The position numbers and the translations under genes were made by a program. The notes beneath the pieces were generated by a model. The model did not search any database. It was given only the letters and a program-made list of their open reading frames with translations, and was not told the origin of the DNA. 64,000 nt of DNA from NCBI RefSeq assembly GCF_007859635.1, contig NZ_CP042306.1, positions 1,674,001 through 1,738,000 on the forward strand. Direction: 5' to 3'. This document shows, one piece after another, positions 28,214-56,502 of this stretch. Position 1 is the first letter of the stretch; the number at the start of each line of letters is the position of its first letter. The stretch comes from Sphingomonas panacisoli. GTDB taxonomy: Bacteria; Pseudomonadota; Alphaproteobacteria; Sphingomonadales; Sphingomonadaceae.

Positions 28214-28294
28214 CGTCATGCCGGACTTGATCCGGCATCCCGCTTCTTTTTCTATGGCCAAAAAGCGGGACCCCGGCTCAAGGCCGGGGTGACG
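28214..28294. repeat. Miniature composite palindrome (81 bp)
   Basis: Layout: CGTC; hairpin ATGCCGGA-CTTGA-TCCGGCAT; arm CCCGCTT; a 17-base loop; arm AAGCGGG; hairpin ACCCCGGC-TCAAG-GCCGGGGT; GACG. The terminal CGTC/GACG and the two arms are mutually complementary, so the whole folds into a three-way-junction shape. It lies 9 bases after the membrane-protein stop, between that gene and convergent ndk, where it may also terminate transcription. It has the same plan and polarity as the copies at 53941 and 56278. Confidence 0.9.
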
Positions 28295-52271: not shown

Positions 52272-53933
52272 ATGCTGTCCGACATCGACATTTCGCGCGC
52301 CGCAACGCTCCAACCGATCCAGGCGATCGCCGACAAAGCGGGGATACCCGCCGACGCGGTCGAACCCTATGGCCGCTTCAAGGCCAAGCTCACTCGCGAG
52401 CACCTCCCCGTCCCGCGCGACCTCGGCAAACTGATCCTGGTCACCGCGATCAGCCCGACCCCCGCCGGCGAGGGCAAATCGACCACCTCGGTCGGGCTCG
52501 CCGACGCGCTCAACCGGATCGGCAAGAAGACGATGATCGCCTTGCGCGAACCGAGCCTCGGCCCCTGCTTCGGCACCAAGGGCGGCGCAACCGGTGGCGG
52601 CTATGCGCAGGTCGTGCCGATGGAGGATATCAACCTCCACTTCACCGGCGATTTCCATGCGATCACCAGTGCGCACAATCTGCTCGCGGCGATGATCGAC
52701 AACCATGTCCATTGGGGCAACGCGCTCGACATCGACGTGCGGCGCGTGGTGTGGCGGCGCGTGCTCGACATGAACGACCGGGCGTTGCGCGACATCGCCC
52801 AGTCGCTCGGCGGGCCGGCCAACGGCTTCCCGCGCGAGAGCGGATTCGACATCACCGTGGCCAGCGAAGTGATGGCGATCCTGTGCCTGGCGGACGATCT
52901 GGAGGATCTGGAGGCGCGGCTCGGGCGGATCGTCGTCGCCTATTCACGCGACAGAAAACCGATCACCGCCAAGGCCTTGAAGGCCGATGGCGCCATGGCG
53001 GTATTGCTCGCGGAGGCGATCAAACCGAACCTGGTACAGACGCTGGAGGGCAATCCGGCGCTCGTCCATGGCGGGCCGTTCGCCAATATCGCGCACGGCT
53101 GCAATTCGGTGATCGCGACGCGGACGGCGCTGGGGCTGGCCGACTATGTCGTGACCGAAGCGGGGTTCGGCGCCGATCTGGGCGCAGAGAAGTTCTTCGA
53201 CATCAAGTGCCGCCAGGCCGACTTGAAGCCGTCGGCCGCGGTGATCGTCGCGACGGTGCGCGCGCTCAAGATGAACGGCGGCGTGGCAAAGGCGGACCTC
53301 AGTACCGAAGACGTCGAGGCCGTGAAACGCGGCGGGGTCAATCTGGCGCGGCATATCGAGAACGTCCGGCAGTTCGGCCTGCCGGCGGTCGTCGCGATCA
53401 ACCGCTTCCCCACCGACACCGGCGCCGAGCTGACCGAGGTGATCGCGATCGCCAAGGCGCATGGCTGCGACGCGATCGTCTGCACCCACCACGCCGACGG
53501 CGGCAAGGGCGCGGAGGGTCTGGCGAAGGTGGTCGTCGAACTTGCGGAAGCGCCATCGCAATTCGCGCCGCTCTACGACGACGATATCCCGCTGTTCGAC
53601 AAGATCAACACCGTCGCGACGCGCATCTACCGCGCCGAGCACGCCACCGCGGAGCCGAGCGTCCTGGCGCAGTTGAAACGATGGGAGGATGCGGGATACG
53701 GCCACCTGCCCGTCTGCATGGCCAAGACGCAATACAGCTTCTCGACCGATCCCGCCGCGTTGGGCGCACCGACCGGGCATAGCGTGCCCGTGCGCGAAGT
53801 GCGGCTGGCGGCGGGCGCCGGGTTCGTGGTCGCGATCTGCGGCGAGATCATGACGATGCCGGGGTTACCCAGGGTACCGGCCGCGGAGGGAATCAGGATC
53901 GGCGCAAGCGGGGAGATCGAGGGGTTGTTCTAG
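52272..53933 (+). CDS. fhs: Formate-tetrahydrofolate ligase
   Basis: A 553-residue 10-formyl-THF synthetase (formate plus THF plus ATP), feeding purine synthesis and formyl-Met-tRNA formation. Motifs: the P-loop [51 protein letters not shown] and the C-terminal [11 protein letters not shown]. Length is typical. It supplies the donor for purN (26653) and fmt (55540). It converges on the GIY-YIG/def side, with the composite palindrome starting 7 bases after its stop. Confidence 0.97.
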
Positions 53934-53940
53934 CCTTAGT

Positions 53941-54316
53941 CGTCACCCCAGCGAACGCTGGGGTCTCAGGCGGCTAGGCCAGTCGGTCGAACAAGTCCTC
54001 CCAATTCGGATTCATGCTTTCGATAAGTTGGATTTTCCATTCGCGTTTCCACGCTTTGATCGCCTTCTCGCGAGCGATCGCCGGCTCGATATCGTCGCTC
54101 GGTTCGGCGAACACCAGCTTGTCCAGATTGTACTGGCGGCAGAAAGCCGATCCCACCCCGCGACGATGTTGATCGACACGCGCTGCGAGATCGGCGGTCA
54201 CGCCTGTGTAAAGCACGCCGCGCGGCTTGTTCGTCATGATATAGACCCAGCCGCCCTTCGCCATGACGCGAGGTTACGCGATGCGGCCTGAGATGCCAGC
54301 TTGCGCTGGCATGACG
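53941..54316. mobile_element. Composite palindromic element carrying a GIY-YIG gene
   Basis: Left end: CGTC (53941-53944), hairpin ACCCCAGC-GAAC-GCTGGGGT (53945-53964), arm CTCAGGC (53965-53971). Right end: arm GCCTGAG (54286-54292), hairpin ATGCCAGC-TTGC-GCTGGCAT (54293-54312), GACG (54313-54316). Ends and arms are perfectly complementary. The inner space holds one gene, the GIY-YIG nuclease. Read on the minus strand it has the same polarity as the 81-82 bp copies at 28214 and 56278 (ATNCC hairpin first, ACCCC hairpin second). It fills all but 11 bases between the fhs and def stop codons. Mobility is inferred; no transposase or target duplication was seen. Confidence 0.7.
53974..54264 (-). 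CDS. Small GIY-YIG nuclease family protein
   Basis: A 96-residue single-domain GIY-YIG protein of the UPF0213/YhbQ-like type. VYI (7-9) and YTG (19-21) form the GIY-YIG motif; the catalytic Arg is R29 (ADLAARVDQHR) and the metal-binding Glu is E66 (AIAREKAIKAWKREWK). All key residues are present, so it may be an active endonuclease. No DNA-binding domain is attached. The gene sits entirely in the loop of a composite palindrome, downstream of def, with 21-29 bases from each end to the arms, and may be the mobility function of that repeat family. Confidence 0.9.
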   Translation of the reverse strand: MAKGGWVYIMTNKPRGVLYTGVTADLAARVDQHRRGVGSAFCRQYNLDKLVFAEPSDDIEPAIAREKAIKAWKREWKIQLIESMNPNWEDLFDRLA

Positions 54317-54320
54317 ATTG

Positions 54321-54845
54321 TTACGCCGCCTTCCGCAACTTCGCCAGCTTCTTCATCAGCATGTCGCGCTTCAGCTTGCTGATGTGATCGGTGAACAGCA
54401 CGCCGTTGAGATGGTCGATCTCGTGCTGAACGCACGTCGCCATCAGGCCGTCCAATTCCTCTTCGCGGCTCTTGCCGTTTTCGTCCTGCCACTTCACGCG
54501 ACAGCGTGCGGGGCGCTCGACCTCGGCATATTGCTCGGGGATCGACAGGCAACCTTCGTTGTAGGTTGAGGTTTCTTCGCTAACCGATAGAATTTCCGGG
54601 TTAATGAAGGTCATCGGCTTGCGCACTGGCTCGCCGTCTTCCTCTTCCGGCTCCTGCAGATCCATGACGAAGATGCGCTGTTCGATCCCGACTTGTGTCG
54701 CGGCGAGGCCGATGCCGCGCGCGTCGTACATCGTGTCGAACATGTCGGCGACCGTCGCGCGGACGGCGGCGTCGATCGTAACGACCGGCTTGGCGACGAC
54801 GCGGAGGCCGGGATCGGGAACTTCGAGGATGCTGAGAACGGTCAT
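54321..54845 (-). CDS. def: Peptide deformylase
   Basis: A 174-residue metalloenzyme removing formyl from nascent proteins. The three family motifs are [17 protein letters not shown] (metal Cys) and QHEIDHLNG (two metal His and catalytic Glu). Normal length. It and fmt, which adds the formyl group, lie close together but on opposite strands with recR between. Confidence 0.97.
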
Positions 54846-55539: not shown

Positions 55540-56502
55540 ATGCGGATCGTCTTCATGGGAACGCCGGACTTTGCCGTCCCGACGCTCGACGCCTTGGTCG
55601 CGGCAGGTCATGAGGTCGCGGCGGCGTACAGCCAGCCGCCGCGCCCTGGCGGACGGCGCGGCCGCGAATTGACGCCGTCGCCGGTGCAGGCGCGGGCGGA
55701 GGCGCTGGGCATTTCCGTCAGGACGCCGACGAGCCTGCGCAACGCCGAGGCGCAAGCCGAATTCGCCGCGCTCGACACCGATATCGCAGTGGTCGCCGCC
55801 TATGGGCTCATCTTGCCGCAAGCGGTACTCGACGCGCCAAAACATGGCTGTTTCAACGTCCACGGTTCTTTGTTGCCGCGCTGGCGCGGTGCGGCACCGA
55901 TTCAGCGCGCGATCCTGGCCGGCGATGCCGAGACGGGCGTGGGCATCATGCGGATGGAGGCCGGGCTCGATACCGGACCGGTGATGTTCGAAGGGCGGAC
56001 GGGGATCGACGGCAAGACGGCTGGCGAACTGACCGACGAACTGGCGCAGATGGGCGCGCGATTGATGGTCGAGGTTCTCGGCGATTTGGCCGCCTTCCCG
56101 CCCCGTCCGCAGCCCGACGATGGCGTCACTTATGCGAAGAAGATCGACAAGGCCGAGACGCGGCTCGATTTCACCCAGCCGGCGGAGCAGGTCGAGCGTC
56201 AGGTCCGCGCGTTCAACCCGCCTGGCGCGTATATCGAAGTTGGCGGCGAACGCATCCGCGTCCTGTCAGCCACCATTCGTCATCCCAGCGAAAGCTGGGA
56301 TCTTGCGAAGCAGCGGGAATCGCTCATCGCCCGAGACCCCAGCTTTCGCTGGGGTGACGGCATTGTAGTCGGCGACGACCTCACCATCGCGTGCGGCACC
56401 GGCGCGATCCGCCCCACCCTAGTCCAGCGCGCGGGACGCGGCGTCATGACGTCAGATGAGCTGTTGCGGGGGTTTTCCCTGCCTCCCGGCACCCAACTGT
56501 GA
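55540..56502 (+). CDS. fmt: Methionyl-tRNA formyltransferase (with repeat-encoded insert)
   Basis: A 320-residue enzyme formylating initiator Met-tRNA with 10-formyl-THF. It begins [19 protein letters not shown]. The catalytic Asn/His lie in [18 protein letters not shown] and the Asp in GLDTGPVM. The C-terminal OB domain is interrupted at about residues 247-273 by [15 protein letters not shown] and [10 protein letters not shown], encoded by an 82-bp palindromic element; conserved sequence resumes at [15 protein letters not shown]. The frame is kept, so the enzyme is probably functional with an extra surface loop. The stop overlaps truA (GTGA). Confidence 0.96.
56278..56359. repeat. Miniature composite palindrome inside fmt (82 bp)
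   Basis: CGTC; hairpin ATCCCAGC-GAAA-GCTGGGAT (56282-56301); arm CTTGCGA; loop; partly complementary arm TCGCCCGAG; hairpin ACCCCAGC-TTTC-GCTGGGGT (56336-56355); GACG. It has the plan and polarity of the 28214 copy and of the nuclease-bearing copy at 53941. It is translated as part of fmt without stop codons. Confidence 0.9.

Follow-up and report, generated by a model that had tools for sequence, protein, structure and literature searches.

Between the convergent genes fhs and def of Sphingomonas panacisoli, at positions 53941-54316 of the window analysed here (a 64,000-nucleotide stretch, positions 1,674,001 to 1,738,000 of contig NZ_CP042306.1), lies a unit in which the gene for a small GIY-YIG nuclease is enclosed by two inverted repetitive extragenic palindromes (REPs). 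It is probable that this unit is an autonomous palindromic mobile element, that the scattered REP pairs of the same type are its gene-less derivatives, and that the nuclease cuts its own folded REP. The pairing of GIY-YIG nucleases with REPs and the mobility of the resulting units are well supported; from this association, the co-evolution of the partners, the fold of the protein and its conserved residues, we infer that the nuclease itself is the mover. It is proposed that such nucleases are the missing enzymes that spread CGTC-type palindromic repeats.

The repeats that flank the window gene are those of the CGTC-tagged REP superfamily, described mostly from Alphaproteobacteria as a CGTC tag, an 8-9-bp stem and a 4-5-nt loop, with neighbouring units oppositely oriented (Di Nocera, De Gregorio, Rocco 2013, PMC3733652). 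In the wording of that description they 'apparently lack a dedicated transposase'. The paper nowhere uses the term GIY-YIG, and the pairing with a nuclease is new here.

Anatomy of the palindromic unit

The fhs gene ends at 53933 and the stop codon of def starts at 54321, and the unit occupies 376 of the 387 bases in between. It opens with a REP of the CCAGC type on the forward strand (53941-53965, CGTCACCCCAGCGAACGCTGGGGTC; CGTC tag, 8-bp stem, 4-nt loop), followed by the arm CTCAGGC (53965-53971, forward), the 96-residue nuclease gene on the reverse strand (53974-54264; PF01541 match, E 6.5e-13), the mirrored arm GCCTGAG (54286-54292, reverse) and the right, likewise CGTC-tagged REP (54292-54316, reverse, CGTCATGCCAGCGCAAGCTGGCATC). 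The two REPs stand head to head with their tags facing outward, and their stems are unlike (ACCCCAGC and ATGCCAGC) yet each fully paired. The mirrored palindromes around a 96-residue GIY-YIG gene, and the near-complete fill of the space between the convergent stops, had been claimed in a sequence-only reading of the window, and the coordinates of the REPs, arms and genes and the domain match bear both out.

A REP pattern search of the 3.40-Mb genome gave 71 matches, against none for the pattern read backwards, and the REPs of the window are therefore not due to chance. Sixty REPs in the genome are of the CCAGC type, and all 24 adjacent pairs among them are head to head. The starts of the two members lie 38-66 bases apart in 23 of these pairs and 351 bases apart in the remaining one, which is the pair enclosing the GIY-YIG gene. 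Three stem variants occur, with a mismatch in one of the 60 stems (the search pattern limits complementarity but does not force it), and the stems are thus kept through compensatory change, as in the CGTC-tagged superfamily. In 22 of 24 CCAGC pairs the stems of the two arms are unlike; random pairing of the variants would give about nine identical pairs (P for two or fewer, 0.0013). For a second type, with a CTTG loop, the pattern has 42 matches, and one pair 374 bases apart encloses another GIY-YIG gene.

Recurrence of the pairing

To assess how often this arrangement recurs, the 200 bases on either side of each gene were compared for their best local inverted match, with a threshold of 14 and no REP consensus assumed. 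In a named, mostly alphaproteobacterial set (80 loci, of which seven were left out for short flanks), 57 of the 73 usable loci reach the threshold and 16 fall below it. The sets for the order, class and phylum comprise genes among the matches listed and retrieved, all within one phylum; the order set overlaps the named set in organisms. Within the order Sphingomonadales, 116 of 133 genes reach the threshold (5/5 in this genome, 24/29 and 87/99 in other genomes, one of the 99, L274, belonging to a distant GIY-YIG subfamily) and 17 do not, while the rest of the class gives 12/13 and the rest of the phylum 17/30. Small GIY-YIG genes are, then, repeatedly flanked by palindromes, the outcome of a check set by the sequence-only reading that speaks in its favour.

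Against these counts stand 0/415 shifted windows in the same loci and, for neighbouring open reading frames (ORFs), 3/253 in the named set and 1/40. Exchanging left and right flanks between loci leaves 21.6% at or above 14, an unclean null because REP types are common to several genera, and the shifted windows and neighbours were used instead. A strict GTC[AG]-tagged hairpin is found on both sides of 143 of 209 genes and of 3 of 358 shifted windows. The nearest tags of 105 of these genes both face away from the gene, and the other 38 have another arrangement. The presence of the family is patchy, with members in at least 61 of the 118 genomes of the order.

Matching of nuclease lineages to REP types

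Every lineage of the nuclease goes with a single REP type. The flanking REPs were sorted into ten types (170 typed and 16 untyped), and type changes were scored on a protein tree of 213 rows built with FastTree. Over the 167 typed rows in it, 31 changes are needed, against 98-114 in 200 global shuffles. The 112 rows of the order set alone need 23. For these, types were exchanged only among paralogues of one genome (28 genomes, 85 rows), which removes the effect of relatedness between genomes; 500 such shuffles gave 47-68 changes, and none reached 23. The nearest protein neighbour, with the same site and genome barred, predicts the REP type correctly in 125 of 170 cases. Shared descent of one locus was considered as a cause and set aside, given that most same-type loci have no detected neighbour in common (96 of 2282 pairs do).

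The abundance of REPs follows the same matching. Exact CCAGC REPs are present in 21 of the 118 order genomes. The 18 genomes assigned to the matching lineage, from protein neighbours only, hold 0 (six genomes), 3, 4, 4, 5, 8, 15, 18, 18, 49, 57, 60 and 66, and nine of the other 100 hold any (1, 1, 1, 2, 4, 4, 7, 13 and 15). Of these nine, the genome with 15 carries a truncated CCAGC-flanked gene (L273), and one with four a decayed gene beside a CCAGC REP (L370). CTGAAC REPs are present in 31 of 118. With no correction for the species tree, both types are commoner alongside their matching lineage, at P 2.5e-10 for CCAGC (5.6e-10 with two REPs per gene subtracted) and 3.2e-10 for CTGAAC (1.5e-6 with REPs subtracted), and at 2.2e-5 and 1.8e-5, respectively, when the comparison is restricted to the 56 gene-yielding genomes without subtraction.

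Presence, absence, multiplication and decay

One hundred genomes had def, and 30 def loci of the genus were examined for the fhs-def junction. In ten of them fhs adjoins def, and the gene with REPs of the same type is present in two, this genome and G155 (72% protein identity). The empty site that the sequence-only reading had suggested seeking in relatives does exist, as would be expected for a transposable element: eight of the ten junctions are without the gene, and two of these are nearly bare, the aligned gene ends being just 39-54 bases apart. Three more carry inverted hairpin pairs that enclose no gene and belong to other types (one found by the detector, two by eye), and three hold other sequence.

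Five members of the family are found in this genome (L001, the window gene, to L005), all with inverted hairpin repeats on both sides and with five different repeat sequences. The flanks of L002-L005 were sought in four relatives. At the L004 site, G143 has neither gene nor REP, G155 a gene-less CCAGC pair and G199 another gene-less pair. The L005 site has no gene and, by eye, no REP in G143, G155 and G204. The L003 site lacks the gene in the same three genomes, G143 and G204 having a gene-less pair of another type there. L002 is retained in G143 (82% identity) and was not found beside a matching flank in G155 and G204. Orthologous sites, both here and at fhs-def, are often empty or occupied by gene-less pairs that belong to other types, so units with and without the gene look like independent insertions into favoured places between genes. 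The divergence of these relatives blurs the exact borders of the units, and with them any target-site duplication.

Recent multiplication is seen in Erythrobacter sanguineus, where the left end of one unit occurs in ten places with differing flanks. Seven copies are complete, two end at a contig border within the gene and one before it; four compared copies are 93-97.5% identical. The elements of E. sanguineus (L371-L380) and of G078 (L276-L282) are, by eye, nested in a single orientation in another dispersed repeat, marked by the signature gcggac(a/g)tt; L387 is a copy of the E. sanguineus host repeat without insert. At L381 (1440-1640), a single CGTC-stem-loop-stem-GACG palindrome stands where other copies of the host repeat carry the nuclease element. 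Such a solo palindrome would be the expected product of joining the two outer hairpin halves, and replication slippage would give the same.

In G078, intact, stop-bearing and deleted versions occur together in one genome, in units of 371, 371, 371, 373 (with a stop), 270, 254 and 141 bp whose common outer flanks derive from a similar repeat. Internally deleted derivatives with common ends thus accompany the full form, as in an autonomous and non-autonomous pair, and the size series from 371 to 141 bp upholds the earlier comparison with a full element and its derivatives resembling miniature inverted-repeat transposable elements (MITEs).

The nuclease and a proposed mechanism

By its sequence, the window protein is a GIY-YIG domain with its catalytic residues retained, Y8, Y19, R29, H33 and E66 being near-invariant over 213 rows and N85 conserved in 211. 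In the predicted structure (predicted local distance difference test, pLDDT, 94.1), the modelled fold most resembles that of Slx1, a nuclease of branched DNA, which ranks first in the VIA-align comparison; the best sequence match in the PDB is 1zg2 (E 1.1e-6). The Slx1/UPF0213 cluster (PMC1564403; PDB 1zg2, 1ywl) is similar in being a stand-alone minimal GIY-YIG domain. It lacks a C-terminal Asn in that account, with which the conserved N85 may not fit. The relevant passages and section 11 of PMC1564403 do not mention repeats at the gene borders, in contrast to the palindrome-bounded genes described here.

The autonomous form of the element would be an Slx1-like GIY-YIG gene between two inverted REPs with outward CGTC tags, and short head-to-head pairs of REPs of the same type would be its non-autonomous, gene-less derivatives. 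By analogy with the cutting of branched DNA by Slx1, the nuclease may recognise the folded hairpin of its own REP and cut there. The break could then be rejoined with loss of the unit, or repair from another copy could carry the unit to new sites. Candidate routes of re-insertion are homing-type gene conversion, end joining or the action of another enzyme; repair copying is favoured because the Erythrobacter copies all share one orientation inside their host repeat.

Alternative explanations

The suggestion that this nuclease mobilises the palindrome family thus gains support from the flanking, the empty sites, the decay series and the matching of lineages to types, with the nuclease itself as the putative mover. 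A rather unlikely alternative is that the REPs are primary and spread by other means, the GIY-YIG gene being a homing parasite that enters pairs of REPs and is copied from pair to pair by break repair. Each lineage, however, retains its own REP type at unrelated sites, and REP abundance follows the matching lineage. Moreover, the L004 site is empty in the nearest relative and carries gene-less pairs of different types in two others, neither being a pair of the same type. It is improbable that the protein is an Slx1-like nuclease with a housekeeping or domesticated role in genome upkeep, trimming REP cruciforms, with the flanking REPs as its own regulatory sites and movement as a by-product. 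Purifying selection, a mostly single copy per lineage and the role in double-strand-break repair predicted for the prokaryotic Slx1 cluster (PMC1564403) agree with such a function, whereas the patchy presence, the empty sites and the high copy number of one genome are the behaviour of a mobile element, and three genes of a different subgroup are unflanked.

That a RAYT or another transposase moves the CGTC REPs, with the GIY-YIG gene as a passenger, is very improbable. RAYT-domain genes do occur in 24 of the 118 order genomes, including the CCAGC-rich G004, G030, G088 and G095, but there is none in G090, G033, G078 or G106, which are likewise CCAGC-rich, and no match to the RAYT-type domain PF01797 in this genome, for which a RAYT mover is therefore rejected. 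Of 12 RAYT-domain genes, with flanks counted outward from the borders of the domain match and some loci truncated by contig ends, one reaches 14 in the flank test, and the best flank match is never a CGTC REP. A passenger would also not be expected to match its REPs by lineage, and the within-genome shuffle makes this reading unlikely. As for coincidence, REPs lie mostly between unidirectional and convergent ORFs in the published description (PMC3733652), and if they pile up after genes any small intergenic gene might appear flanked; the neighbouring ORFs and shifted windows refute this, leaving chance flanking with a negligible probability.

Relation to known systems and significance

The REPs are known and the plan is that of REP/RAYT systems; the unrelated enzyme is the new part. 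As in REPtrons and REPINs, an enzyme gene lies between REPs of its own type, gene-less pairs occur elsewhere, and the enzyme lineage is matched to the REP type. REPtrons, however, employ an HUH Y1 transposase and a GTAG tag, against the GIY-YIG fold and CGTC tag here, where the gene-bearing unit also sometimes multiplies itself. Unlike homing endonucleases of the GIY-YIG fold such as I-TevI, the window nuclease has no DNA-binding extension and no intron, is bounded by palindromes and has a fold nearer to Slx1. MITEs and their parent insertion sequences share the relation of a full element to internally deleted derivatives, whereas here the ends are hairpins and no transposase was found in the unit. 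Among the best-ranked papers of searches of the open-access literature, none linking GIY-YIG nucleases to REPs was found, and a word search of the main text of a 2025 REP survey (PMC12306157) found neither 'nuclease' nor 'RAYT' nor 'transposase'.

CGTC palindromes are widespread, chiefly in Alphaproteobacteria, and the 2013 description (PMC3733652) left them without an enzyme. A dedicated nuclease would explain their origin, many sequence types and uneven abundance, and would assign a role to a nuclease family without one. It would also mean that REP-type repeats are served by two unrelated enzymes. Further, the pairing supplies ready sets of nuclease and substrate, for instance the six paralogues with six REP types of G108. 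With more reserve, we lean towards a broader view in which stand-alone GIY-YIG nucleases are, throughout Pseudomonadota, REP enzymes of a second kind that is independent of RAYT. There would be at least two subfamilies, each with its own palindrome superfamily (CGTC/GTG-tagged, in ten types by the present typing, and, for a more distant subfamily, CGTTCG-type). The nuclease would cut the folded palindrome, and copies with and without the gene would spread by break repair. If true, the sole enzyme of such a class of mobile element would be a structure-selective nuclease, with no strand-transfer chemistry.

Further paralogues and REPs

The five family members of this genome differ in their tags, CGTC being found at L001 and L005 and GTG-like or similar tags, not CGTC, at L002-L004; L003 and L004 have two hairpins per side. 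Elsewhere, long inverted matches at L202, L262 and L268 suggest a complete REP pair on each side of the gene, and two GIY-YIG genes lie about 0.6-1.3 kb apart at L194 (G021:C5), L097 and L085. Genes of the distant GIY-YIG subfamily (L274, L275, L357-L369) are accompanied by inverted CGTTCG-type repeats, in TGAGCTTGTCGAA or GAGCGAAGTCGAG variants, and 12 of the 15 reach 14. The three unflanked ones are a separate subgroup, which we take to be YhbQ-like.

The pattern search of the window gave no match to the CTCC-type REP. The CGTC tag is present on the 53941-54316 unit and on both REP types of the window, CCAGC and CTTG. Two gene-less pairs had earlier been cited as copies of the same element. 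This is correct for the CCAGC pair (56278-56302, forward, and 56335-56359, reverse) and not for the pair at 28214-28239 (forward) and 28269-28294 (reverse), which is of the CTTG type, another REP family, flanking the GIY-YIG gene G000:C1:2183036-2183293. The CCAGC pair lies in frame within fmt (55540-56502), in the part encoding the C-terminal domain, and is hence not intergenic.
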